This document shows, in pieces, positions 2,945 through 39,061 of a stretch of 64,000 nt of DNA. Made by a program: the position numbers and the translations under genes. Below the pieces are notes generated by a model. The model did not search any database. It saw nothing but the letters and a program-made list of their open reading frames with translations, and was not told the DNA's origin. The DNA comes from a virus, in IMG/VR virus record IMGVR_UViG_3300025131_000013, positions 1 to 64,000 of that record, one strand, 5' to 3'. The first letter of the stretch is position 1; each line of letters begins with the position of its first letter.

Positions 2945-3046
2945 ATGCTATTTGGACTCAAGAAGTTGGCCCCGTTTTCAAGTTACCCTGACTTCATTCC
3001 GAGAGAGGCTTTTGAGATACAACAAGTGATAGGATGGATTATCTAA
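2945..3046 (+). CDS. Possible 33-residue small protein
   Basis: A short ATG-initiated frame begins 2 nt after the glycosyltransferase stop and encodes a plausible peptide starting MLFGLKKLAPF. A weak purine stretch (GGATGA) lies just upstream. A competing 29-codon frame begins at 2940 and overlaps the previous stop as ATGA, so which of the two, if either, is translated is unclear. No family is recognised. Confidence 0.3.
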   Translation: MLFGLKKLAPFSSYPDFIPREAFEIQQVIGWII

Positions 3047-3129
3047 GGGAGGATTTCAAAAAGAAGGTTTCCCAGCAGTGTCGAGTGAAGGCGTTTACTG
3101 AATTTTTTTTTAGAGAGTGGAGGAAAGCA

Positions 3130-3948
3130 ATGGCTGGTGAATCAATAGGACTCACAGCATCATCTTCAGAGCAGTCAACGGTTCCGATAACAAACTCACC
3201 GATAGTGAAGCTGGTGTCTCCGCCAGATTCCTTCGATTGTCTTACTCAGATCTCGACGATGTGGTTGGCGGCCCATCATGTCGATCCGATTGCGATCCAA
3301 AAGACGCTGACTATCGAACAGATGCGGTCTATGATTTGGGACGAGGTGATCCCGATTCCTGCTTGGCAGACGGTGTTGGAGTGTGTTCGGTTTACGTTTG
3401 TGATCCACAATATGAGCCGACCGGCGCAGCAGCAGTTGACCCGACAGAGGCTTGGAGTTGGCTTCAATAACAACTCCCTTCGGATCATCAAGCTTGAGAC
3501 GTTCGCGGACGATGACCGGTATCGGACGCCTCCTGGTTTGAATGAGGAACAGCACAATTTATACCACAGCGCCATAGATCGGTCGCAAGAGGACTATGAG
3601 GAGCTTCTTAAGGCAGGTGTGAGTCAAGAATCAGCCCGAGGTGTCCTTCCTCAGAATATCCACTCGCCTACGTTGACGATGTTCTCCGATCTGCGCGCCC
3701 TCCGAGGGTTCATCTCCAAGAGGCTTTGCTACGAGGCCCAGGATGAGATGAATGAATTTGCTGTATCCCTTAAGAGAGAAGTTGATGAGTGGGATCACTG
3801 GTTCGGTGGACTGCTTTCCTTCCCTTGCTCCCGAGATAAGGAGTGTGTGATTGGTCCAGGTGCCGCTGAACGTTGCCCGCTTCCGTATGAGTGGAAGGGT
3901 GGTGCCAATAAGGGTGTTGTTATTACTTCCCATAAGGAGATCAGGTGA
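3130..3948 (+). CDS. thyX: Divergent flavin-dependent thymidylate synthase
   Basis: ThyX methylates dUMP to dTMP using FAD, NADPH and methylene-tetrahydrofolate. The start at 3130 is chosen because GGAGGAAAG sits just upstream; an in-frame ATG at 3034 has no comparable site. From this start the protein has 272 residues. The substrate-binding region reads SRPAQQQLTRQRLGVGF then NNNSLR: Arg105-Gln106-Arg107 with Ser116. The family motif is RHR-x7-S, so His is replaced by Gln and there is one extra residue before Ser. The downstream segment (YEELLKAGVSQESARGVLP, then RALRGFISKRLCYEAQDEM) matches the family closely. A Cys-containing C-terminal extension (SFPCSRDKECVIG) is unusual. Nucleotide metabolism is its likely role; activity with the altered motif is untested. 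Confidence 0.85.
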   Translation: MAGESIGLTASSSEQSTVPITNSPIVKLVSPPDSFDCLTQISTMWLAAHHVDPIAIQKTLTIEQMRSMIWDEVIPIPAWQTVLECVRFTFVIHNMSRPAQQQLTRQRLGVGFNNNSLRIIKLETFADDDRYRTPPGLNEEQHNLYHSAIDRSQEDYEELLKAGVSQESARGVLPQNIHSPTLTMFSDLRALRGFISKRLCYEAQDEMNEFAVSLKREVDEWDHWFGGLLSFPCSRDKECVIGPGAAERCPLPYEWKGGANKGVVITSHKEIR

Positions 3949-5367: not shown

Positions 5368-5407
5368 GGTTCCAGATGAGGATTCTTTACCTTTAGATAA
5401 CGAGAGG
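5366..5407 (+). promoter_or_regulatory. Conserved phage promoter-like motif, copy P1
   Basis: This copy reads AGGGTTCCAGATGAG, then GATTCTTTACCTTTAGATAA and CGAGAGG. It matches the shared consensus AGGN(5)CCAG...GATTCGYTACCTTTAAGTAG and precedes the gene at 5436, whose ribosome site AAAGGAGGTG follows about 20 nt later. An AT-rich -10-like core (TTAGAT) is visible; no consensus TTGACA lies at sigma-70 spacing. Confidence 0.6.
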
Positions 5408-17985: not shown

Positions 17986-18135
17986 GTGCGTCTATGGCGT
18001 AGGGTTACGGACTATGACTGGATGTGGTATGATGACGACTGTAATATGATCTGCCTAGTCTTTACTGCTGTAGTTATGCTCGTGGGGTGGTTAGGACTAG
18101 AGTGCCTTATGTTCCTCTCCCACTCTCCCCGCTGA
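17986..18135 (+). CDS. Possible 49-residue membrane protein
   Basis: A GTG-initiated frame encodes a basic/aromatic N-terminus (VRLWRRVTDYDWMWYDDD) and one hydrophobic segment (MICLVFTAVVMLVGWLGL). No well-spaced ribosome site precedes it, so translation is uncertain. Confidence 0.3.
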   Translation: MRLWRRVTDYDWMWYDDDCNMICLVFTAVVMLVGWLGLECLMFLSHSPR

Positions 18136-18199
18136 ATCCTCTCATTATCAATCTAGCTCCCCGCTGAATCCTCTCATTATCAATCTAGCTCCCCGCTGA
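18126..18199. repeat. 32-bp tandem direct repeat, 2.3 copies
   Basis: The unit begins TCCCCGCTGAATCCTCTCAT and ends TATCAATCTAGC. Copies start at 18126, 18158 and (partial, 10 bp) 18190. The copies are identical and contiguous, so this is not a CRISPR array. Function unknown. Confidence 0.85.
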
Positions 18200-18360
18200 T
18201 GTGAGACACCGCTCGACTTCCCTCCTGGCACTCAGTCACACACCCACACTGGGTTGATTGGATGATTGGCACGATGCCCAGCTGGCTGTGTTTTCAGTCA
18301 ACCGGCAGTAATCACAATTGACGTGCCTTATCAGCACCAAACCGCACCAAACAGGACTGG

Positions 18361-18454
18361 CCATTCAGTCAACCAGGCAAGTTTGGGTTGCTGAATGGTG
18401 AATTTAACCATCCAGTCAACCATGCAAGTCTGGGTTGTTGAATGTTGAATGGTG
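18361..18454. repeat. Two 47-bp hairpin-forming direct repeats
   Basis: Copies start at 18361 and 18408. Each contains CCAKYCAGTCAACC, CAAGTYTGGGTTG and TGAATG. In copy 1 CCATTCAGTCAACC can pair with GGGTTGCTGAATGG with a single bulge, giving a hairpin of about 13 bp. The copies differ at several bases that largely preserve the pairing. Confidence 0.6.
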
Positions 18455-18491
18455 GATGCTGCTGGTTGTTGGTTGGGTCCGGCCCGGATGT

Positions 18492-19180: not shown

Positions 19181-19223
19181 AGGATTCCAGTTGTCGATTC
19201 GCTATCTTTAAATAGGTAGAGAA
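19181..19223 (+). promoter_or_regulatory. Promoter-like motif, copy P8
   Basis: AGGATTCCAGTTGTC is followed by GATTCGCTATCTTTAAATAG and GTAGAGAATC. It precedes the small gene at 19252. Confidence 0.65.
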
Positions 19224-19251
19224 TCCGCTCTACCTAAACGAAGGGAACGAG

Positions 19252-19458
19252 ATGGATATCCCTATTCTTAGGGGGATCGTAAAGTCCAGCGTATTAGAGC
19301 TAGACGGTTGCGTTAACGAATACGGAGTAGAGGTTGATGTATGCTCCGGAGGCGGCCCCAACGCGGGAGGCGTTACGATCCAGCTTCGGATTCCAGATCG
19401 AGACGAAATCTCGATTAGACTTCAGAACGACGGAATCTTCACGGTAGTCGAACTCTAA
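19252..19458 (+). CDS. Hypothetical beta-rich protein, 68 residues
   Basis: Behind copy P8 with GAAGGGAACGAG before ATG. Strand-rich (YGVEVDVCSGGGPNAGGVTI, EISIRLQNDGIFTVVEL), similar in style to the beta domain of the genes at 16684 and 19506. TG and CA dinucleotides are already sparser here than in neighbouring genes. Function unknown. Confidence 0.6.
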   Translation: MDIPILRGIVKSSVLELDGCVNEYGVEVDVCSGGGPNAGGVTIQLRIPDRDEISIRLQNDGIFTVVEL

Positions 19459-19760: not shown

Positions 19761-19770
19761 GACGAGGAAG

Positions 19771-19816
19771 AACGATCCGTTGACTGGGATATTACTTATT
19801 CAGTCAACGGATCGTT
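19771..19816. repeat. 16-bp perfect inverted repeat
   Basis: AACGATCCGTTGACTG (19771-19786) and CAGTCAACGGATCGTT (19801-19816) are exact reverse complements around an AT-rich 14-nt spacer; with one mismatch the pairing extends to about 20 bp. Both arms carry the CAGTCAAC motif found elsewhere in this intergenic zone. It may be a terminator without T-tract, an operator or part of an origin. Confidence 0.7.
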
Positions 19817-19860
19817 GTTCGAGCTGGTAGGTATTGCTGGCTGCTGCTGGTTGCTGGTTG

Positions 19861-19923
19861 GCTTTCAGCCAGTCAGTCAGCTTCCAGTCAGTCAGCCAGT
19901 CAGCTTTCAGTCAGTCAGTCAGA
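19861..19923. repeat. CAGTCAG-type microsatellite
   Basis: Reiterated CAGT/CAGTCAG units with occasional TTC and CC interruptions (for example AGCCAGTCAGTCAGCTTCC). It ends about 45 bp before the left inverted repeat of the TG/CA-free island. Confidence 0.75.
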
Positions 19924-19969
19924 AATCACAACCGGCATAGGGTAAGCACGTTAGAAAAACTAAGTCCTA

Positions 19970-19998
19970 CTACTTAGCCTTAAGCGATACTAAGTAGT
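19970..19998 (+). repeat. Left terminal inverted repeat
   Basis: CTACTTAGCCTTAAGCGATA followed by CTAAGTAGT. It matches the reverse complement of 21049-21077 at 28 of 29 bases. It is itself part of an 11-bp palindrome (CTACTACTTAG / CTAAGTAGTAG). Confidence 0.8.
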
Positions 19999-20267
19999 AG
20001 TGGGAAAAATCTACCGGAAGAAAATTCTTAAGAAAAAGATTAGTTTCGCTTAAGGGAAAAATCTTCCTCTACGAAAATTATAAGACGTTCTACTACTTTT
20101 CCGCTTAAAGCGAAATCTATACCTAAAAGCGAAAAAAAGGCGAAAAAAGACGAGAAAATTTTTTTTACGAAAAGCGAAAAAAAACGCTAGACTCGACTAG
20201 TTTAATACCCTATACTTAGACCTACGAACCCTAACGAAAGGAAACGAAGAAAAGAGTAAAAAGAGTA

Positions 20268-20389
20268 GACTCTAGGCGAAGCGGGAACTTAGGCTTTCGC
20301 CCTTACTACCTAGAGTCCTACCGCCGGATTATCGGGATAACCCTTAAATATCCGGCTTAAAAGGTTCCTAGCTTACCGTAAAAAGCTAG
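20268..20389 (+). promoter_or_regulatory. Structured leader of the island gene (three hairpins)
   Basis: Three successive stems lie in the untranslated leader: GACTCTAGG (20268) with CCTAGAGTC (20309), GCCGGAT (20323) with ATCCGGC (20350), and CTAGCTT (20368) with AAGCTAG (20383). All are perfect. They end 40 nt before the start codon, which has TTTAGGAG upstream. The leader may be a regulatory RNA. The 5' portion (20041-20210) is very A-rich with repeated GCGAAAA units. Confidence 0.5.
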
Positions 20390-20429
20390 ACTCGATTTAT
20401 TTTTTTTTACTTCTCTTTAGGAGAAAAAA

Positions 20430-20978
20430 ATGTCTCTCGATATTACCCCCGTAGAGGCCGCCGTAGAGGTCCCCGTAGTCGGAGACTCTAAGGACGCCGG
20501 GATATACGCCTATAACCTTTTCGAAGTCGCCCGGATCGCCGTAGCGCGGCGTCCTAAAGACGCGAAAAAGGTTAAGGTAGGAACCGAAGATCGAGGCGGT
20601 TATACTAGTCCCGATCGATACGCGTCCTTCCGGCTCGCGTTTTCCCTCTCTCTAACGAATTCCGAAGCTAAACGGGTAGCTATCGTAGCGCGCTTCTCCG
20701 AGACGTTAAAGATTCGGAAACGGATCGTAGACGCCGGAATTCCCGTAGGGAAGGGTTATACCTATAAGGAACTCGCGTCTACCGCCGCCGCTCTACGCTA
20801 CGGCGAAAAGTACTCCGGGTTCGTAGCGTTTCGACCTAACGGTACTCGATTCGCCGTAGCGGAAAAAAACGAGCGTTTCTTTCTTTACGTAGTAAACGCG
20901 AACGGAGAGGTTTTCCCTAACCTTCCCGAATCGCTTAAGGTTAAGGAGGTCGAGGGGGAGCTAATAAAGGTAGAGTAA
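20430..20978 (+). CDS. Island protein of 182 residues lacking C, H, Q, W and internal M
   Basis: ATG 20430 follows TTTAGGAGAAAAAAA. The product begins MSLDITPVEAAVEVPVVGD and is basic, soluble and alternating strand/helix (YAYNLFEVARIAVARRPKD, KGYTYKELASTAAALRYGEK, RFAVAEKNERFFLYVVNANG). It contains no Cys, His, Gln or Trp and only the initiator Met, exactly the residues whose codons contain TG or CA. Codon junctions also avoid T|G and C|A. Valine uses GTA, GTC and GTT, never GTG; Ala never GCA; Leu never CTG or TTG. No family is recognised and no catalytic motif is evident. The lack of Cys and His excludes zinc sites and His-based catalysis. Confidence 0.85.
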   Translation: MSLDITPVEAAVEVPVVGDSKDAGIYAYNLFEVARIAVARRPKDAKKVKVGTEDRGGYTSPDRYASFRLAFSLSLTNSEAKRVAIVARFSETLKIRKRIVDAGIPVGKGYTYKELASTAAALRYGEKYSGFVAFRPNGTRFAVAEKNERFFLYVVNANGEVFPNLPESLKVKEVEGELIKVE

Positions 20979-20989
20979 TAAATTCGACT

Positions 20990-21021
20990 CCCGGTCCTAA
21001 CGGACCGGGGGTTTTTTTTTT
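20990..21021 (+). terminator. Rho-independent terminator of the island gene
   Basis: CCCGGTCC (20990-20997), loop TAAC, GGACCGGG (21002-21009), then GG and a run of ten T (21012-21021). A textbook terminator, and itself free of TG and CA. Confidence 0.9.
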
Positions 21022-21048
21022 AGCCTATAGGGAAGTTCCTTCCCTTCG

Positions 21049-21077
21049 ACTACTTAGTATCGCTTAAGGTTAAGTAG
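21049..21077 (-). repeat. Right terminal inverted repeat
   Basis: ACTACTTAGTATCGCTTAAG followed by GTTAAGTAG, the reverse complement of 19970-19998 with one mismatch. The TG/CA-free tract ends 7 nt beyond it, at CA 21085. Confidence 0.8.
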
Positions 21078-21189
21078 AACTAAGCAGAACGGGGTAGGGG
21101 TTAAACGCTAATTTCTTAGCTTTTAACGTCTCAATTGGTCTGCTTACATACACGTGCAATTTTTTGGTGAAATTTGCTTCAGGAGGGTG

Positions 21190-31261: not shown

Positions 31262-33385
31262 GTGAATAAGTTTGAAGGTAAGAATTTTGTGAATCCGGGC
31301 AATGTTAAGATTGATGATCCCAAGGCCGCGATTGCTATCGAAGCTCAGATCCTTTCGGATTTGATTATTGATCGAAAGCAAACCGGCCATGAATCATTGG
31401 GTGATAAGGATGCCCTGATCCAAGTAGCTCATGATGTTGATTGGGTTACTCTCCGAATAGCCAAGAGGCTTATTAAGGAGGCAGGACCACGAAAAGCTAT
31501 CGCGCTTGCTCAACTAGCGTCAGGGAATCTCTTTACTCCGCATAACGAGATACGGACGATAGAGAGAAAGCCCGGGAAATCATGTGCATTCTTCTCTGAC
31601 GGTCGTTCCTTCTATACGGGTGGTCGCTACAGCGTTTTTATGCACGCCGTCTTACTGGCCGAGGTGATGAATGTCACTTGGCTGACTGATGAACCCCTTC
31701 CGTTTGAGTCAGACTTCCCAGATCATAAGGTCAAGGTCATTGAAGACGCTCGGATATTTGAGCGGAAGATGGAGGATCTTGGTGTTGACTTTGTAGTTGG
31801 ACTCCCCAATCTATCAGGACAAGCTGCAGCCGCTTATTCGGAGCAGTTCAAGATCCCCTATTATTTGGTGATGTTTGAATCGCCGAATTTCATCAAGGAG
31901 TTCAGGAGTGATGGGGAAGATGCGAAGGAAACCTACTGGACTGACTATAAGAAGTGTATGCGTGGTTGCGACGCTGTTATCGCTCATAGCAATGTTAGTG
32001 CGGACTTTACTCGTGATTGGCTCTCTGACGGAGAAGGTAGACTCCCTCCAGTCCGAGTAACTCACCCTACGTGGAATAAGACAATACTTGACGCTGAACT
32101 GTTTAGCCAGCTCAAACCTAGAGAGGGTGTGGTAATTTGCTCCCGCTCTGCTCCGTTCAAAGATCCGTATGCTCTGCTAGTTGAGCTGGATAAGATAGGC
32201 TTTAAAGAGCGAGTGGTAATAATCGGAAAGACTTGGAAGACAGATCGTTACGAGAAGGATTGGTCTTTTGAGTTGATCCTATACGGGACTATCTCAGATA
32301 CTAGAAAGTTCTCGTATCTGAAGCAAGCCAAAGTTCTCGCTATGCCCTCCCAATTTGAAGGATTTGGGATGCCTCCAATGGAGGCACTGGCGTGCGGAAC
32401 TCCGGTGATCGCTTATGATCTGCCCGTTCTTAAGTCGATTTATGAAGGGGAGATTGTCTACACCCCTATAGGTAATGCTGGTTTGATGGCACGGCGTATA
32501 GTAGAGGCGTGTGATCCTGAGATCAGAGACATACCTTTCCAATCAAAGCCAATCCTCAAAAAGCTCTCCCCGCGTAGTGCGTTAACTTCCCTAAAGCGCG
32601 CCTTCCCAGGCCCATTAACACTTGGAGTAGGCATTATTGCCTACGATATAGGGGATTGGGTAGGAAAGGCAATTGAGAACGCCGCCCAGTATGCTGACGA
32701 GGTCTATATTGTCCACGGACGGTGCGCTGACTTCCCTGAAGCTCCTCACGGAGACCAGCATACGATTGAGGAGATTGAGCACGCCATCTCTCAGATAGAC
32801 GTTCCGGTGTTCTTCCATCGGCTGGGAGAGCATATCCCTCCGACTAAGGTTGCTCTCCAAAACTTCATCGCCGAACGGGTTGAGACCGACATCTATATGA
32901 AGCAGGATGCGGATGAGTTCTGGCATCCAGAAGATGTTCAGAAGGCTCTGGAGATGTTCGTTGAGGATGAGGAATTGGACATCATCCGAGTGTCCTGGCA
33001 TCACTTCTGGAAGAATTTGAAGCAGGTTACTTGTGATGCCGGAGGTCAGTGGACGAATAAGCACCCTCGCTTCTGGAGATGGAACTCAGGGTTCTCCCAT
33101 ACCTTTACCCATAACAACTTTGTCGACGCAGATGGTATAGAAGTCAGACCACCGGACTATCCAGAGGTTGTAACAGACCTAACCTGCTATCACTGCGGGT
33201 ATGCTCGGGGTGAAGAGTATGTCCAGCGCAAGATCGAGTTCTATCGGGATAGGGGAATTGAGAAGGATGTTAAAGATACCTATACCGATTGGAAGCCTGG
33301 AGATCGGACTCAGCCTACCCAGCACGCTAATGTGAATAGCTGGGTCGAGCCGTTCAAGGGTAAGTTGCCGGAGATCCTGAAATGA
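31262..33385 (+). CDS. Two-domain glycosyltransferase (GT4-like plus GT2-like)
   Basis: A 707-residue protein. Residues 1-95 are a helical region of unknown role. Residues 100-420 form a GT-B type, group 1 transferase with PSQFEGFGMPPMEALACGTP followed by VIAYDLP, the donor-binding signature. Residues 450-700 resemble a GT-A, family 2-like domain (LGVGIIAYDIGDWVGKAIEN; DIYMKQDADEFWHPEDV supplies a DAD-type metal motif). One polypeptide could therefore add two sugars. GTG at 31262 is the start. First gene of the glycan cassette inserted after the head genes; overlaps the next gene by 4 nt. Confidence 0.8.
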   Translation: MNKFEGKNFVNPGNVKIDDPKAAIAIEAQILSDLIIDRKQTGHESLGDKDALIQVAHDVDWVTLRIAKRLIKEAGPRKAIALAQLASGNLFTPHNEIRTIERKPGKSCAFFSDGRSFYTGGRYSVFMHAVLLAEVMNVTWLTDEPLPFESDFPDHKVKVIEDARIFERKMEDLGVDFVVGLPNLSGQAAAAYSEQFKIPYYLVMFESPNFIKEFRSDGEDAKETYWTDYKKCMRGCDAVIAHSNVSADFTRDWLSDGEGRLPPVRVTHPTWNKTILDAELFSQLKPREGVVICSRSAPFKDPYALLVELDKIGFKERVVIIGKTWKTDRYEKDWSFELILYGTISDTRKFSYLKQAKVLAMPSQFEGFGMPPMEALACGTPVIAYDLPVLKSIYEGEIVYTPIGNAGLMARRIVEACDPEIRDIPFQSKPILKKLSPRSALTSLKRAFPGPLTLGVGIIAYDIGDWVGKAIENAAQYADEVYIVHGRCADFPEAPHGDQHTIEEIEHAISQIDVPVFFHRLGEHIPPTKVALQNFIAERVETDIYMKQDADEFWHPEDVQKALEMFVEDEELDIIRVSWHHFWKNLKQVTCDAGGQWTNKHPRFWRWNSGFSHTFTHNNFVDADGIEVRPPDYPEVVTDLTCYHCGYARGEEYVQRKIEFYRDRGIEKDVKDTYTDWKPGDRTQPTQHANVNSWVEPFKGKLPEILK

Positions 33386-34260
33386 GGATTTGTATAATCA
33401 GGAACAATAATCCGGGGCACGTCCAGATAGCAGATATGCTCTGGAGGTCAGCCTTAAGACTAGGGCATACTCCTGTTCTTGCCGGGGCAAATGATATGTC
33501 CCCAAGACCAGCGGATATGACCATCCTAGTCAATATCGTCCCTAAAGCTATGGCGGCAGTCAATAAGGCTACTGGGACTCTCGGCAGGATACGTAATAAG
33601 GTGTATATCAATCTTGAGAACTTGCCTTTTGCCGAGGGCAGTGGTCAGTTCGAGAGATACAGGATCAAAGAGTTTAACGCCCAGATAGAGATTTTCAATC
33701 CTGGCTGCGTAACACTCTGCGACCCCGGAGTGTATGATCGGGTGTCCCTTAAGAAGCTAGGCGTGATGATGCCTCGCCAGTTCTACGATAAAGGGTTCTT
33801 GTATGATCCAGACTTCCATAGGGATCTAAGGATGCTTAAGGATTTGGGAGCTTGTTTTATAGGGAGCTTGAGCGAGGACAGGAAAGAGAAGTTGGCGTCT
33901 ATTCGGAAGGTGAATGTCTTTCGATCCTGGGGGTATGAGAAGGTATCCTTGATGAACCGACACGCCATCTCCCTGAACTTCCAAAAGCGGGATGAGCACA
34001 ACTTCAAGACGTATAGGGCAGTAGACGCGATAATGTGTGGGTGCCTGTTCTTAACAGAGCAGGATGACTTCCATACTACTTTCCCTGATGATTGTTATGT
34101 CTCAGTCCCGATAGAGGATATGCCTGAGGCGGTGGAGTATTATCTTGAACACTCCAACGAGAGGGAAAAGATAGTAGGTTTGGCCCAGGAGTTCATCAAG
34201 AGTAATTTTGGAGTAGACCAGTATCTAAGTGGACTAGTAGAGGAATTTCAAGATGCCTGA
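33382..34260 (+). CDS. CgeB-like glycosyltransferase, 292 residues
   Basis: ATGA overlap with the preceding gene. The C-terminal half has the CgeB/Glyco_trans_1_2 pattern: NFKTYRAVDAIMCGCLFLTE, then SVPIEDMPEAVEYYLEHSNE and a final helix. The N-terminal half is Rossmann-like (MRICIIRNNNPGHVQIADML). Probable nucleotide-sugar transferase of unknown specificity. Confidence 0.7.
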   Translation: MRICIIRNNNPGHVQIADMLWRSALRLGHTPVLAGANDMSPRPADMTILVNIVPKAMAAVNKATGTLGRIRNKVYINLENLPFAEGSGQFERYRIKEFNAQIEIFNPGCVTLCDPGVYDRVSLKKLGVMMPRQFYDKGFLYDPDFHRDLRMLKDLGACFIGSLSEDRKEKLASIRKVNVFRSWGYEKVSLMNRHAISLNFQKRDEHNFKTYRAVDAIMCGCLFLTEQDDFHTTFPDDCYVSVPIEDMPEAVEYYLEHSNEREKIVGLAQEFIKSNFGVDQYLSGLVEEFQDA

Positions 34261-35545
34261 TAAAGTTGATGGCTTGCGGGATATAGTGAATAATCTGAAG
34301 AAGAAGGATCGAGACTCCACTATCTTGTTCACCGAAGAAGAGATCATGGAGATTCGTCACGGTCAATCTTCAGAAGAGGACAGGAAAGCCTTGTTTGATG
34401 CCGTCAGGGAGAGGCCAGGATTCCAAGCTCCTGGAGCAGCAGCTCACGCCAGCAGACCGGAGATGATCGCTAGAGAAGGGCAGGAGAATATGACTAGTGA
34501 TCAACTAGCTGATCTCCTTATGCTCAAGCTACAGGTAACTCCTCAGCACAAGATACCTTTCACGGGGACTAAGGTCAATGTCAATAGTTGGTCTAACGCG
34601 ACTAGGACATTCAGATGTTGGGGAGACTACTGGGCCTGGATGCAATTGGGTCGTGCGTTTACTGAATTGGGCTACCATTTTAATGTTGATCCTGGGATCT
34701 CTGACGTCACAGTGTATCTGAGGGGCGGTCGATTCAAGACCGACGATCATTGGCAGGTCCCAAATCGGATCAACCCAAATACCCACAATATTGTCTGGAT
34801 CTATTCTCATCCGGACGACATATCGAGTCTTGAGCTTCGGGACTACGATGAGGTATGGTGCCTCTCCCAGAAAATGGTCGATCAAGTTCAGGCTTACGGG
34901 CACAAGGGATTAGTTGAGACTCCTATTACTTCGTGCACAAACATGGTGGAGCCTTCTACAGTCGATGACCGCTTCGACGTAGTATTTATCGGGAATGCCC
35001 GAGGTCAGACAATTAACGAGGATGGTAGGGACGTCATCCAGATGCTGAAGGATCGATCGGATCTAAACGTAGGCATCTACGGGATGAAGTGGGATCTCCC
35101 TCATCTTAGCTGGGTAGTAGATCGAGGATGGTGGCAGGGTGACTACTACGCCTACTACAAGCTACCAAGACTCTACAGCGGAGCAAAGGTAGTCCTGAAT
35201 GATACTCACCCCGATATGGCTAGGTTCGGGTTCATCCCGATGAAGCTATTCGATATCATTAGATCAGGTGGATTCCCGATCACGGACGGCATCGCTGGTC
35301 TTGAGGAGAAGCTCCCAGAGATAGCTGTCTATGAAAGCAAGAAGAATCTCAACGATCTGATTGACTATTACCTGGAGGAATCAGACGAGCGGACTGAGAG
35401 ACAGCGCGATATGTGGTATCGTATCAAGGATGATACCTTTACCGCAAGAGCAGCAGAAGCAGTCGAGAGTTCTCATTACGAGGGATGGAAGTCAAGAGAG
35501 TCAGTATCGCAGGAGATGTTCGATGTCCACCGAGTTGAAGCTTGA
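34253..35545 (+). CDS. CgeB-like glycosyltransferase with N-terminal extension, 430 residues
   Basis: Overlaps the previous gene by 8 nt. About 100 residues of charged, low-complexity extension precede a transferase core (NVNSWSNATRTFRCWGDYWA, NIVWIYSHPDDISSLELRDY, DVVFIGNARGQT, FGFIPMKLFDIIRSGGFPIT). The motif order matches the other CgeB-like enzymes here. The extension may tether it to a virion or partner; inference only. Confidence 0.7.
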   Translation: MPDKVDGLRDIVNNLKKKDRDSTILFTEEEIMEIRHGQSSEEDRKALFDAVRERPGFQAPGAAAHASRPEMIAREGQENMTSDQLADLLMLKLQVTPQHKIPFTGTKVNVNSWSNATRTFRCWGDYWAWMQLGRAFTELGYHFNVDPGISDVTVYLRGGRFKTDDHWQVPNRINPNTHNIVWIYSHPDDISSLELRDYDEVWCLSQKMVDQVQAYGHKGLVETPITSCTNMVEPSTVDDRFDVVFIGNARGQTINEDGRDVIQMLKDRSDLNVGIYGMKWDLPHLSWVVDRGWWQGDYYAYYKLPRLYSGAKVVLNDTHPDMARFGFIPMKLFDIIRSGGFPITDGIAGLEEKLPEIAVYESKKNLNDLIDYYLEESDERTERQRDMWYRIKDDTFTARAAEAVESSHYEGWKSRESVSQEMFDVHRVEA

Positions 35546-36116
35546 GGTAGGGTGCGGCGGTAGATTGCCTGGAGGCTATATCGGAGTAGATATAGTCCAG
35601 ACTAAGGCAGTCAAAGGGAAGCCGTTTATCTATGGTGAGGCTGCTAAGATACCGTTTCAAAGCGGGACGGTAGATGAGGTATCCTGCTGTCATATGGTAG
35701 AGCATCTTGACCCTAGATACTTTGTGAGTTGTCTACTTGAATGGCGTAGAGTTCTGAAGGTAGGCGGGGCGTTGGTTATCCAATGCCCTAATGCTATTGT
35801 CTACCTAGAGGAACTTCTTGAGTTCTTTAGAGATGGTGGATTACCTCGCGCACCACGGCTAGAGCCGCAGAGGTATCCAGATGAGATGAAGAACCGACCG
35901 TATGAGATGTGGCCTATAATCCAGGTCACCGGACTTGCTTCGATAGGAGACCATATGGTTAATCGGAATCACTTCTCTATAGAGCATCTGAGATTCTACG
36001 TCGAGATATACGGTGGCTTTGAGATAAAGGAAGCCAAAGTCAAAAGGACTAGGCAGAGTCACGGAATCGAACATCGACCTGACGGAGATTTAATTGTCCG
36101 AGGAACAAAAAGATGA
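35523..36116 (+). CDS. SAM-dependent methyltransferase
   Basis: ATG 35523 is inside the end of the previous gene. The 197-residue protein has the class I motif LEVGCGGRLPGGYIGVD (motif I and the acidic end of strand 2), IPFQSGTVDEVSCCHMVEHL (motif II region) and WRRVLKVGGALVIQCPN (post-motif). This matches Methyltransf_11-type enzymes, often O-methylating sugars or capping glycans in such clusters. Confidence 0.8.
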   Translation: MSTELKLEVGCGGRLPGGYIGVDIVQTKAVKGKPFIYGEAAKIPFQSGTVDEVSCCHMVEHLDPRYFVSCLLEWRRVLKVGGALVIQCPNAIVYLEELLEFFRDGGLPRAPRLEPQRYPDEMKNRPYEMWPIIQVTGLASIGDHMVNRNHFSIEHLRFYVEIYGGFEIKEAKVKRTRQSHGIEHRPDGDLIVRGTKR

Positions 36117-37126
36117 TCAAGGTATTCTATGTAGACGCTTTTGCCCAAGAGAGGTATTCAGGCCCCTTTAGGCTCAAAGGATTCGAGTTGGCTAAGTTCG
36201 ATGCGGTTGCGTTTGATTACCGACAGATCGGATATACTCACGGGGAGCTAGGGCTGAATCACTCTCTACTCAATTCTTTGAGGGTTTTCAGACCGGATGT
36301 TATATTCGTCAACAAGGGGCACTTCGGGATTAATCAGAAGGTGCTAAGGCAGTTCCTTGACGATAATCCTCATACTATGCTCATCACTTGGACCGGAGAT
36401 CAGCGCGGGACGGTAATGGATGAGGTAGTTCCCTGTGCTCAACTCTCTCATGTCCTTGCCCATAGTAATGACGATCCTAAGTTGGCTAAAGGGTATAATG
36501 AGGTGGGCGTCCCTAACGTAATAGAGCATCATTGCGCTACGGACGTTGAGGTGTATAAGCCTCACGATGCCTGGCCGCAATCAATGGAAGGAGAGGTATC
36601 CTTCTTTGGCAGCCAATACGGGGCGTATCCTCTTAGCGGGTTCAGGGATGAAGTCCTGAAAGCTGTTGATAAGGAGTATGACCTAAAGCTGTATGGAGGA
36701 AACTGGGAGAGGGTGTTTCCGGGCAAGCTGACTAGCCAAGCCCATCGAGATAGATACGCTTTGGCTGCCTCCGGCTGTAATATCCAACTCTGTGTCAATG
36801 CCTTCAATAATATCCACCGCTATACGTCGAATCGGGTATGGAACGCTTTGGCGTGCGAGAGGCTTGTTTTACAGCACCATTTCGCCGGGGCTGAGTCTTT
36901 ATTGGGTCCAGGTTGTGAGAATGTAGTATACTTCCAAGATACTGATCAGTGCCTGGCGCTTATTGACTACTATCTGGCCCATAAGGATGAGGCCCAGGAG
37001 ATAGCAGCCAGAGGCAGGAAGTTTGTTGAGGAGGCTCATACCTACTACCATCGGGCTATGGAGCTAAAGGATATATACGACAAGTGGATGGAGGATGATG
37101 CCTGGTCCTTCAACAGGAGGGGATAA
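36113..37126 (+). CDS. CgeB-like glycosyltransferase, 337 residues
   Basis: Paralogue of the gene at 2035 (shared HCATD, NRVWNALA and terminal RGRKFVEEAHTY). ATGA overlaps on both sides. N-terminal YVDAFAQERYSGPFRLKGFE and the C-terminal nucleotide-sugar half are intact. Specificity unknown. Confidence 0.8.
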   Translation: MIKVFYVDAFAQERYSGPFRLKGFELAKFDAVAFDYRQIGYTHGELGLNHSLLNSLRVFRPDVIFVNKGHFGINQKVLRQFLDDNPHTMLITWTGDQRGTVMDEVVPCAQLSHVLAHSNDDPKLAKGYNEVGVPNVIEHHCATDVEVYKPHDAWPQSMEGEVSFFGSQYGAYPLSGFRDEVLKAVDKEYDLKLYGGNWERVFPGKLTSQAHRDRYALAASGCNIQLCVNAFNNIHRYTSNRVWNALACERLVLQHHFAGAESLLGPGCENVVYFQDTDQCLALIDYYLAHKDEAQEIAARGRKFVEEAHTYYHRAMELKDIYDKWMEDDAWSFNRRG

Positions 37127-37956
37127 TGCCTGATGCTTTTTGGCAAACTCCGGAGTTTCTGGAATTCTTGACTAAAGGTAAGGTTGAGAAGACCAGATAT
37201 AATCTGAATGTGGATGATCTATCTCCTGCTATACCAAGGAAAGAATCTACAGACATCCTATTCAAGCTATTCAAGCTATACCCCGGTTTAAAGGTGGATG
37301 CCTTTGTAATCCCTGACTGGAGAGGCGAGGCCTGTGTTAAGGACTACCCTGGTTGGATACAGGAAGTCAAGACCCTGGTCGATATGTTCGATCTGAGGCT
37401 CCACCACCACGGGCTTAACCATGATTTCAATCAAGGCTTTAGGACAGAGTTCTCGGATAAGTCAATAACTGAATGCGAGGACATTATAATAAAGGCCGTA
37501 GAGGTCTGGAGCAAGGTAGGGTTGGATGTAGGGATGGAAGTCTTCAGGTCACCTAGATGGGTTAGCAGCACGAACCTTTTGGATGCTTGTAAGAATCTAG
37601 GGTTCAAGATAATTGGCCTAAATTGGAGGCAGCATCCGGCAGAAGTATGGAAGAGGGGGATGGATGTAGTATATAGCAATTTCTACTACGCCAATACCCC
37701 GACCTACCCAAGCGGCAAGGCTAAGGATAAGGATCTCCACCAGTTATGGTCTGATTTCTCTAACGAGAGGATCTGCCACGCTCACTTCGGGCATCTAGGA
37801 TACGATGCCTTGAGGAAAAGAGTAGACAACACAAAGGTGGACATAAGAGATATGATCCTTTACGGGGCAGACTACGTGTATCTGGAAGAAGCAACTTCTT
37901 TCCGAGAGGTGGTGAAAAATGCAAATCCCGCTGTTCAAGCCGCATGTCAACCCTAA
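37126..37956 (+). CDS. Polysaccharide deacetylase-like protein
   Basis: A 276-residue NodB-type fold candidate. NLNVDDLSPAIP (D30-D31), RLHHHGLNHD (H93-H95, H99) and FRSPRWVSS (R141, W145) match the Asp, His-x3-His and Arg-x-Pro landmarks of the deacetylase/DUF2334 superfamily, which remove N-acetyl groups or bind metal sugars. It overlaps the aminotransferase by 38 nt. Likely trims or modifies a sugar of the cassette product; substrate unknown. Confidence 0.7.
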   Translation: MPDAFWQTPEFLEFLTKGKVEKTRYNLNVDDLSPAIPRKESTDILFKLFKLYPGLKVDAFVIPDWRGEACVKDYPGWIQEVKTLVDMFDLRLHHHGLNHDFNQGFRTEFSDKSITECEDIIIKAVEVWSKVGLDVGMEVFRSPRWVSSTNLLDACKNLGFKIIGLNWRQHPAEVWKRGMDVVYSNFYYANTPTYPSGKAKDKDLHQLWSDFSNERICHAHFGHLGYDALRKRVDNTKVDIRDMILYGADYVYLEEATSFREVVKNANPAVQAACQP

Positions 37957-39061
37957 AGCCCTAAAGGGATTAGCCGATATATTTGAGTCCGGTTGGACGG
38001 GTCTTGGCCCAAAGACTGAGGAGTTTGAAGAGGCTTTCTGCGAATATACCGGGGCTAAGTATGCGGTAGCTGTCAACTCGTGTACAGCAGCCCTACACTT
38101 AGCCTTAATTTGCGCTGGATCAAGGGATGAAGAGACAGTCATATCAACTCCTATGACTTTTGTTTCGTCCAATGAGGCTATTAAGTATACCGGGGCATAC
38201 GTTGATTTCGCAGACGTATGTTCTGAAACGCTTAGTATGGACCCCAAATCTTTACAAAAGATGTGCGAGGATCAAGGGCCACCGAAGGTTGTAGTTGTAG
38301 TCCACTATGGTGGCTCTCCGGCAGAAATTGATTCTTTTTCTAGTCTCCAAGATCAATACGGCTTCGAGATTGTATGGGATTGCGCCCATGCTATGGGTGC
38401 TTCTCATAGGGATAGGAAGCTGGGATCTTTTGAGAAGTTTGCCTGCTTCTCTTTTCACGCGGTAAAGAATCTAGGGATTGGTGACGGAGGGATGATAGCG
38501 ACGAATGATCAAGAGGTCTATGAGCGTCTCAAGCGTCTAAGATGGATGGGCGTTGATAGCTCGACTTACGAAAGATCCTCAAACGGAAAGTATAAATGGT
38601 TGTATTCCGTAGATGAGTTGGGGTATAAGTATCACATGAACGATGTCATGGCTACGATTGCTTTGGCTCAGCTTAAGGATCTAGAGTGGCAAAACGAGAG
38701 GCGCAGGAATTTAGCCCTCCAATACCAGCATTTTCTCGTAGACCAATGGGCTTCTAATGGGGATCTGCAGATCGTTAATCCTTATAAGTCAGATAGGGAA
38801 AATGCCCAGCACCTGTTCGTTATACGGGTGAAGAAGGGGGCAAGGGACGGCTTACATAACTATTTGGCTAAAAGAGGGATCACTACCGGGGTCCATTATT
38901 ACCCGAACCACCTATACAAGATGTTTTACGGGCAGTACCAGTGCCAGCAGGCTTGCTTGGCATTTGAGGAAATCCTTAGCCTACCGATGTATTGGCAGAT
39001 GGAAACTGAGGAGCAGACTTATGTTTGCGAAGCAATTAAGTCCTATTTTAACGCTGTCTGA
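37919..39061 (+). CDS. DegT/DnrJ/EryC1-type sugar aminotransferase
   Basis: A 380-residue PLP enzyme. VNSCTAALHLALICAGS is the cofactor phosphate-binding region, WDCAHAMGAS holds the cofactor-binding Asp (D154) and FHAVKNLGIGDGG the Schiff-base Lys (K183). C-terminal GVHYYPNHLYKMFY is also typical. These enzymes aminate keto nucleotide sugars (for example toward pseudaminic or bacillosamine-type sugars). The acetyltransferase downstream would complete an acetamido sugar. GAGGTGGTGAAA precedes ATG. Confidence 0.92.
   Translation: MQIPLFKPHVNPKALKGLADIFESGWTGLGPKTEEFEEAFCEYTGAKYAVAVNSCTAALHLALICAGSRDEETVISTPMTFVSSNEAIKYTGAYVDFADVCSETLSMDPKSLQKMCEDQGPPKVVVVVHYGGSPAEIDSFSSLQDQYGFEIVWDCAHAMGASHRDRKLGSFEKFACFSFHAVKNLGIGDGGMIATNDQEVYERLKRLRWMGVDSSTYERSSNGKYKWLYSVDELGYKYHMNDVMATIALAQLKDLEWQNERRRNLALQYQHFLVDQWASNGDLQIVNPYKSDRENAQHLFVIRVKKGARDGLHNYLAKRGITTGVHYYPNHLYKMFYGQYQCQQACLAFEEILSLPMYWQMETEEQTYVCEAIKSYFNAV

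Follow-up and report, generated by a model that had tools for sequence, protein, structure and literature searches.

A natural phage cassette purged of TpG and CpA and conserved in two lineages: a possible target-null expression unit

Introduction

Restriction-site avoidance reflects selection against short sequences, which normally are sites of 4-6 bp that are depleted genome-wide and incompletely. A reading of DNA at the level of the dinucleotide, T then G, is found in the thymidine-hypermodified phages (M6, ViI and phiW-14), whose 5hmdU DNA kinases act on T in TG or TC (PMC6449724, PMC7653180). No TG/CA-free island has been described in those phages. Defence by adducting phage DNA also has precedent in DarTG, with a specificity other than the one considered below (PMC9967889, PMC11543638). 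In that system, enzyme-made adducts at short phage-DNA motifs block replication and transcription; DarT2 uses the motif TNTC, DarT1 targets G with no evident motif, and both work on single strands. We know of no phage gene that escapes DarTG through absence of the motif.

Here we describe a phage expression cassette from which TG and CA are almost completely absent on both strands. To our knowledge, no described system has this property, and our literature search for such an element found none, in line with an earlier note that first drew attention to the tract. The window that we analysed, 64,000 nucleotides long, is part of a 93,475-bp IMG/VR virus record (IMGVR_UViG_3300025131_000013).

Results and discussion

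One dinucleotide step is excluded from a single cassette

The exclusion of TG and CA from the cassette is certain. Between 20003 and 21084 CA is absent and the only TG is that of the ATG at 20430-20432, just as the earlier note had read these letters. Base composition predicts 131 such steps (49.9 in the leader, 68.2 in the coding sequence and 12.9 in the 3' part), so that the near-total depletion stands, and its expected number, given there as roughly 135, is slightly lower. The nearest steps that bound the cassette are a TG at 20001 and a CA at 21085. As limits of the depleted unit, the original coordinates proved slightly too narrow: 19948-21131, which includes the left hairpin, holds only 3 TG/CA in 1,184 bp. 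A genome-wide comparison, which had been proposed as a check, gave TG/CA odds of 0.97 in the rest of the 93-kb genome, where no stretch of more than 61 bp is without either step. As a control, the longest such stretch in 694 kb of unrelated viral contigs is 79 bp.

CG and TA steps are abundant in the cassette, as had been stated (odds 1.78 and 1.30). The remaining dinucleotide ratios (CG up, AT down) approximate those predicted from forbidding TG/CA in random DNA; thus no second step is avoided, and the claim of a specific one-step exclusion, as opposed to a general compositional oddity, is upheld. Every NTG and every TGN is excluded equally, which points to a reader of the dinucleotide itself. 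We also agree that this is no codon effect, because coding and non-coding DNA are purged alike, and 2,000 recodings of the 182-residue protein with the phage's own codon usage gave a mean of 53 TG+CA and a minimum of 38. Five amino acids (C, W, M, H and Q) are missing from the protein except for the start Met, where 18 such residues would be expected.

The cassette is natural and conserved in two lineages

Two further contigs, from other metagenomes, carry the window phage at 99.6-99.8% identity, cassette included (L001 and L002). Their variants comprise SNPs and, in L002, an in-frame 21-bp deletion; L001 has a second TG in the cassette, at 20031. About a third of random changes would make TG or CA, and the SNPs inside the cassette are too few to serve as a test of selection. 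Altogether, contigs from four IMG/VR records contain the cassette, and their variants are independent. An assembly artefact or synthetic insert, which the earlier note had listed as a possible refutation and which the designed look of the property might bring to mind, is therefore so improbable as to be practically negligible, given these independent contigs and a homologue, about 50% identical in protein, in another phage lineage.

This homologue lies in a divergent phage (contig IMGVR 3300024259_000062, hereafter L007) whose terminase and capsid proteins share 82% and 86% amino-acid identity with those of the window phage. Its cassette occupies the same locus between the same neighbours and is stricter, with 0 TG/CA in 1,596 bp against 192 expected. 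The earlier note had proposed a protein search of metagenomic contigs and had held that homologues with ordinary dinucleotide use would count against its claim; the sole homologue found shares the depletion. Since no NTG codon of any kind (ATG, GTG, TTG or CTG) is present in the L007 cassette, its gene must start at another codon. The sole good candidate is an ATT at L007:4056, in frame and 7 nt after an AAGGGG Shine-Dalgarno sequence, and translation probably begins there. The start codon itself has thus been purged.

The leaders of the two cassettes (427 bp in the window phage and 800 bp in L007) have almost no sequence in common, and both are free of TG/CA, which argues that the exclusion is itself the conserved trait. 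At about 50% amino-acid identity between the proteins, the 0 of 192 in L007 likewise indicates that the exclusion has outlasted extensive divergence. We conclude that the cassette is natural and selected. Selection on the DNA and conservation are shown in two lineages, those of the window phage and the L007 phage.

A directed mutator that strips TG/CA from a segment, comparable to the action of RIP on CpA in fungi, might also produce a loss so extreme and so limited to one segment. This origin is very improbable. TA stands at 1.29/1.33 against 1.58/1.62 under plain exclusion, so that the RIP product TA is not in excess; the cassette ratios show no sign of TG to CG or TG to TA mutation, and the products of change are varied. 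Furthermore, the gene is open in both phages, and the window phage keeps exactly the functional ATG.

Beyond the window phage (2 contigs) and the L007 phage, IMG/VR gave no matches. DNA and protein queries of GenBank phages and plasmids had no match, and the GTDB genomes contain no relative of the cassette; one GTDB pattern hit (L111) has ordinary TG/CA and was set aside as chance. A pattern search with the shared 14-mer motif returned about 80 chance matches, none with a TG/CA-free tract. Relatives of the terminase and capsid (26-39% identity) have no such cassette in the stretches checked, and a profile of the cassette protein found nothing in four whole records of those relatives.

Architecture of the cassette

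The features of the cassette and its surroundings are collected in Table 1.

Table 1. Features in and around the TG/CA-free cassette (window positions)
Feature	Position	Strand	Basis or remark
Genome maximum of TG/CA density	18175..18474	.	68 per 300 bp
Early-type promoter and gene g37 (68 aa)	19192..19458	+	TG/CA observed/expected 0.36-0.43
TG/CA-rich spacer (CAGTCAGTCAG / GCTGCTGCTGGTTGCTGGTTGG), directly left of cassette	19801..19945	.	
Left-end hairpin, 11-bp stem CTACTACTTAG/CTAAGTAGTAG	19967..20000	.	sequence, fold
Repeated motif CCTTAAGCGA in loop of left-end hairpin	19967..20000	.	sequence
TG/CA-free cassette: leader, gene, terminator, right hairpin	20003..21084	+	one TG (start codon)
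Non-coding leader without TG/CA	20003..20429	+	structured as RNA, z about -2.6 to -3.1
Best sigma70-like promoter TAGACT-N17-TATACT	20188..20216	+	weak, prediction only
Gene, 182-aa protein	20430..20978	+	Met solely at start, no C/W/H/Q
Intrinsic terminator CCCGGTCC-TAAC-GGACCGGG, then T10	20990..21021	+	sequence, fold
Right-end hairpins with TATCGCTTAAGG, inverted copy of left end	21030..21077	.	inverted repeat, fold
Conserved right flank TACATACACGnnnAATTTTTTG, outside cassette	21146..21167	.	also directly right of L007 cassette

The predicted promoter is a TG/CA-free version of TTGACA/TATAAT. The cassette ends form an inverted repeat (19970-20007/21040-21077, 87% complementary), and the ends of the L007 cassette are palindromes with T-runs that do not resemble them. 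A 10-nt motif, TCGCTTAAGG, occurs four times in the window cassette and twice in the L007 cassette, and nowhere else in either genome. The L007 leader is also structured as RNA (z -6.1), and an Rfam search gave no match. Within that leader lies an imperfect palindrome of about 310 bp (L007:3468-3778), and the segment L007:3260-3800 folds with a z of -8.9. A strong 20-nt hairpin is present between g38 and the window cassette (19767-19820), with an analogous hairpin to the left of the L007 cassette.

The purge extends about 70-100 bp past the terminators. Together with the long purged leader, this seems more than transcription alone would need. Avoidance at the level of RNA was rejected, because each step is missing along with its complement and the purge reaches past the terminators.

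Both cassette proteins (182 residues in the window phage and about 218 in L007) have a variable, short acidic N-terminus and a conserved basic core, with a pI of about 9.8-10. The protein has no match in Pfam, PHROGs, NCBIfam, PDB sequences, or phage, plasmid and genome collections. AlphaFold with the two sequences suggested helices followed by a three-stranded sheet at low confidence (pLDDT 41 for the full protein and 57 for the core), and Foldseek on these models gave no meaningful match. Neither the sequence nor these low-confidence models matched the terminase small subunit (TerS). Kinship with the g9/g36 family of the phage was rejected (hhalign probability 5%).

Transposition, one of the hypotheses in the earlier note, is not supported. 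The only gene of the cassette has no Pfam, PHROG or NCBIfam match to a transposase or recombinase, and the cassette sits at the same locus in two divergent phages. No relative with an empty site was found, and the neighbours are the same in both lineages.

Neighbouring spacers are rich in the same step

The earlier account was correct on the depletion and missed the neighbouring spacers that are hyper-rich in TG/CA. Across 18-21 kb, spacers carry 26-33 TG/CA per 150 bp against 18 expected, and transcription units are poor in them. The densest tract lies about 1.8 kb upstream of the cassette in both phages, and the L007 counterpart is likewise the maximum of its contig; for comparison, the genome mean is 35-36 per 300 bp, and local shuffling reaches at most 58. 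TG contexts within this tract are like the genome average in both phages. Gene g37 has the lowest TG/CA in the genome after the cassette. Early-region genes in general are poorer in TG/CA than the remaining genes of each phage when protein sequence and codon usage are controlled for (p=0.004 in the window phage, p=0.005 in L007), with a small deficit of about 5%.

Given this arrangement, the product of the cassette gene might itself read TpG/CpA, with its own gene lacking the target so that expression continues. Such a protein could bind DNA as a silencer, with the TG/CA-rich spacers as nucleation sites, or could act as a nickase or modifier. The TG/CA maximum beside the gene in both phages fits this idea, and the only gene in the exclusion zone encodes a protein whose basic core and acidic tail would suit a DNA-binding protein; TCGCTTAAGG, limited to the cassette in both phages, could be its specific binding site. 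A function like that of a xenogeneic silencer is possible. However, weak binding to a dinucleotide is hardly expected to cause selection against the last TG or a start codon, and a nuclease would also cut the remaining phage DNA. No DNA-binding family was recognized in the protein, including the silencer domains H-NS, MvaT, Lsr2 and Rok (Pfam and NCBIfam). We regard this self-exemption as doubtful, although it and the modification-free island discussed below are the chief rivals of our preferred reading.

The control region has other features of its own. A perfect 32-bp tandem duplication (18125-18188) lies in non-coding DNA beside the TG/CA-rich tract. Near-identical early promoters (about TAGGAnnCCAGTTGTCGATTCGCTACCTTTAAGTAGGnGAGGG) occur at window positions 5377, 7417, 10312, 11327, 14653, 15607 and 19192, where this family precedes small early-region genes, and the L007 phage has a related promoter motif, TTACCTTTAGTTAG (contig G001 16557-29249). 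We considered TG/CA-free early promoters as a sign that modification blocks initiation, and rejected this because the L007 promoters carry CA in the spacer.

Replication or recombination offers a further reading of this region, in which TpG is the minimal start site of the phage primase or the preferred loading sequence of its RecA. The cassette would then be a desert for priming or recombination, and the TG/CA-rich DNA beside it a start zone, perhaps an origin accompanied by its initiator. Among its own proteins the phage counts a DnaG-like primase, a DnaB-like helicase, Pol III alpha and RecA. Hairpin ends, palindromes and iteron-like repeats mark the cassette, the control region in which it lies is non-coding, and TGGTGG runs occur within the TG/CA-rich tracts. 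Even so, this explanation is improbable. Known primases read trinucleotides, whereas the exclusion seen here makes no difference among NTG or among TGN. A desert of 1.1-1.6 kb is only about one Okazaki fragment, and the TG/CA deficit of the early genes would be left unexplained.

Restriction-site avoidance and possible DNA modification

In addition to the replication proteins, the window phage encodes a ThyX-like protein, a family-4 UDG, a terminase and capsid (both named from their relatives), an amine-oxidase-like flavoprotein, several glycosyltransferases, methyltransferases and a DegT aminotransferase. The ThyX-like protein (3034-3948) is divergent, with the motif RQR-X8-S in both phages, where the usual motif is RHR-X7/8-S. 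Glycosyltransferases, a methyltransferase and a DegT/PseC-like aminotransferase cluster between the capsid and tail genes (31262-39061). A sigma-factor-like protein (positions 92010-92723 of the whole phage genome; weak match, E 0.001) is 72% conserved in the L007 phage.

Genome-wide, TGCA occurs at 0.36/0.22 and CATG at 0.44/0.42 of expectation in the two phages. GTAC (0.10) and many 6-bp palindromes are also avoided, for example CTCGAG, with none found where about 29 are expected. Judged from these counts, such site avoidance indicates probable heavy exposure to restriction enzymes.

A phage that modifies its own DNA at TpG might need to keep the cassette unmodified, to leave the unit usable by host RNA polymerase or some other host enzyme at the start of infection. 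The precedent of the 5hmdU kinases favours such a modification-free island, as does the presence of the ThyX-like protein, flavoprotein, glycosyltransferases, methyltransferases and aminotransferase, although the glycan genes may serve surface sugars. Several observations nevertheless make it unlikely. The avoidance of TGCA and CATG, along with GTAC and 6-bp palindromes, means that TG sites are apparently exposed to restriction and cut, which argues against a bulky T modification at TG, and for this reason thymidine hypermodification is disfavoured. In addition, TC is not excluded from the cassette, and a Pfam scan of about 45 of the 118 predicted proteins detected neither a 5hmdU kinase nor an aGPT-pyrophosphorylase domain.

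A possible target-null cassette

Among the hypotheses of the earlier note, escape from an agent that reads TG/CA is the best class. Because both strands are purged, in leader, coding and post-terminator DNA and with no regard to context, such an agent would read TpG/CpA in DNA. Because the purge is confined to one unit, graded into its neighbours and faintly visible in early genes, it would concern expression early in infection. The loss of five amino acids and, in L007, of the normal start codon speaks for strong selection. A single TG is not fatal, however, since the window phage keeps its ATG and L001 has its second TG.

Our preferred explanation, offered tentatively, is that the cassette is a target-null expression unit that stays usable while some agent acts on TpG/CpA of phage DNA. 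An early-region gene, together with the leader, terminator and end hairpins that belong to it, would be kept free of the step, such that an agent acting on TpG/CpA in double-stranded DNA could not damage, mark or block it. The agent's substrate would be DNA, not RNA, and its action would fall early in infection. Every TG would bear its own cost, and the gene product would be needed during the agent's activity. In the version that we favour, the agent is host-derived, a defence by which phage DNA is adducted, nicked or blocked at TpG/CpA. The gene would encode a counter-measure whose production has to go on even when the genome is under attack. The counter-measure role is a guess, because the protein has no recognizable family or fold. 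The TG/CA-rich spacers might be a sink, or merely places where unavoidable TG/CA steps are tolerated. We know of no agent with plain TpG/CpA specificity, and we found none.

It is conceivable, on the same tentative footing, that complete exclusion of one dinucleotide step from a whole transcription unit, non-coding DNA and start codon included, renders a gene of some phages 'invisible' to an agent that acts on DNA. A dinucleotide absent from both strands over 1-1.6 kb, across divergent phages, suggests a strong TpG/CpA-acting agent in the cell. If true, this target-null rescue cassette, set beside TG/CA-rich tracts, would be a counter-adaptation of a new kind and would imply a dinucleotide-specific DNA-acting defence, toxin or modifier that has hitherto gone unrecognized. 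If the agent were found, a DNA-targeting immune system or phage weapon of a new sort might come to light. Any genome can be scanned for the signature, a long tract that lacks a dinucleotide.

Comparison with known systems

Each of the known systems resembles the cassette in part. With transposon-like elements, the window cassette shares inverted hairpin ends and a motif repeated at both ends and inside, but it lacks a transposase, and the ends differ between two divergent phages that carry it at one locus. It differs from RIP-like hypermutated DNA in having no TA excess and intact reading frames. Unlike the thymidine-hypermodified phages, the window phage retains TC in its cassette, avoids TG palindromes and has no kinase among the proteins searched. 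DarTG is like the proposed agent in placing adducts at short motifs of phage DNA, and is unlike it in motif and in its use of single strands. The window phage also practises restriction-site avoidance in the usual sense, whereas the exclusion in the cassette concerns a 2-bp step, is confined to one unit of 1.1-1.6 kb and is near absolute.
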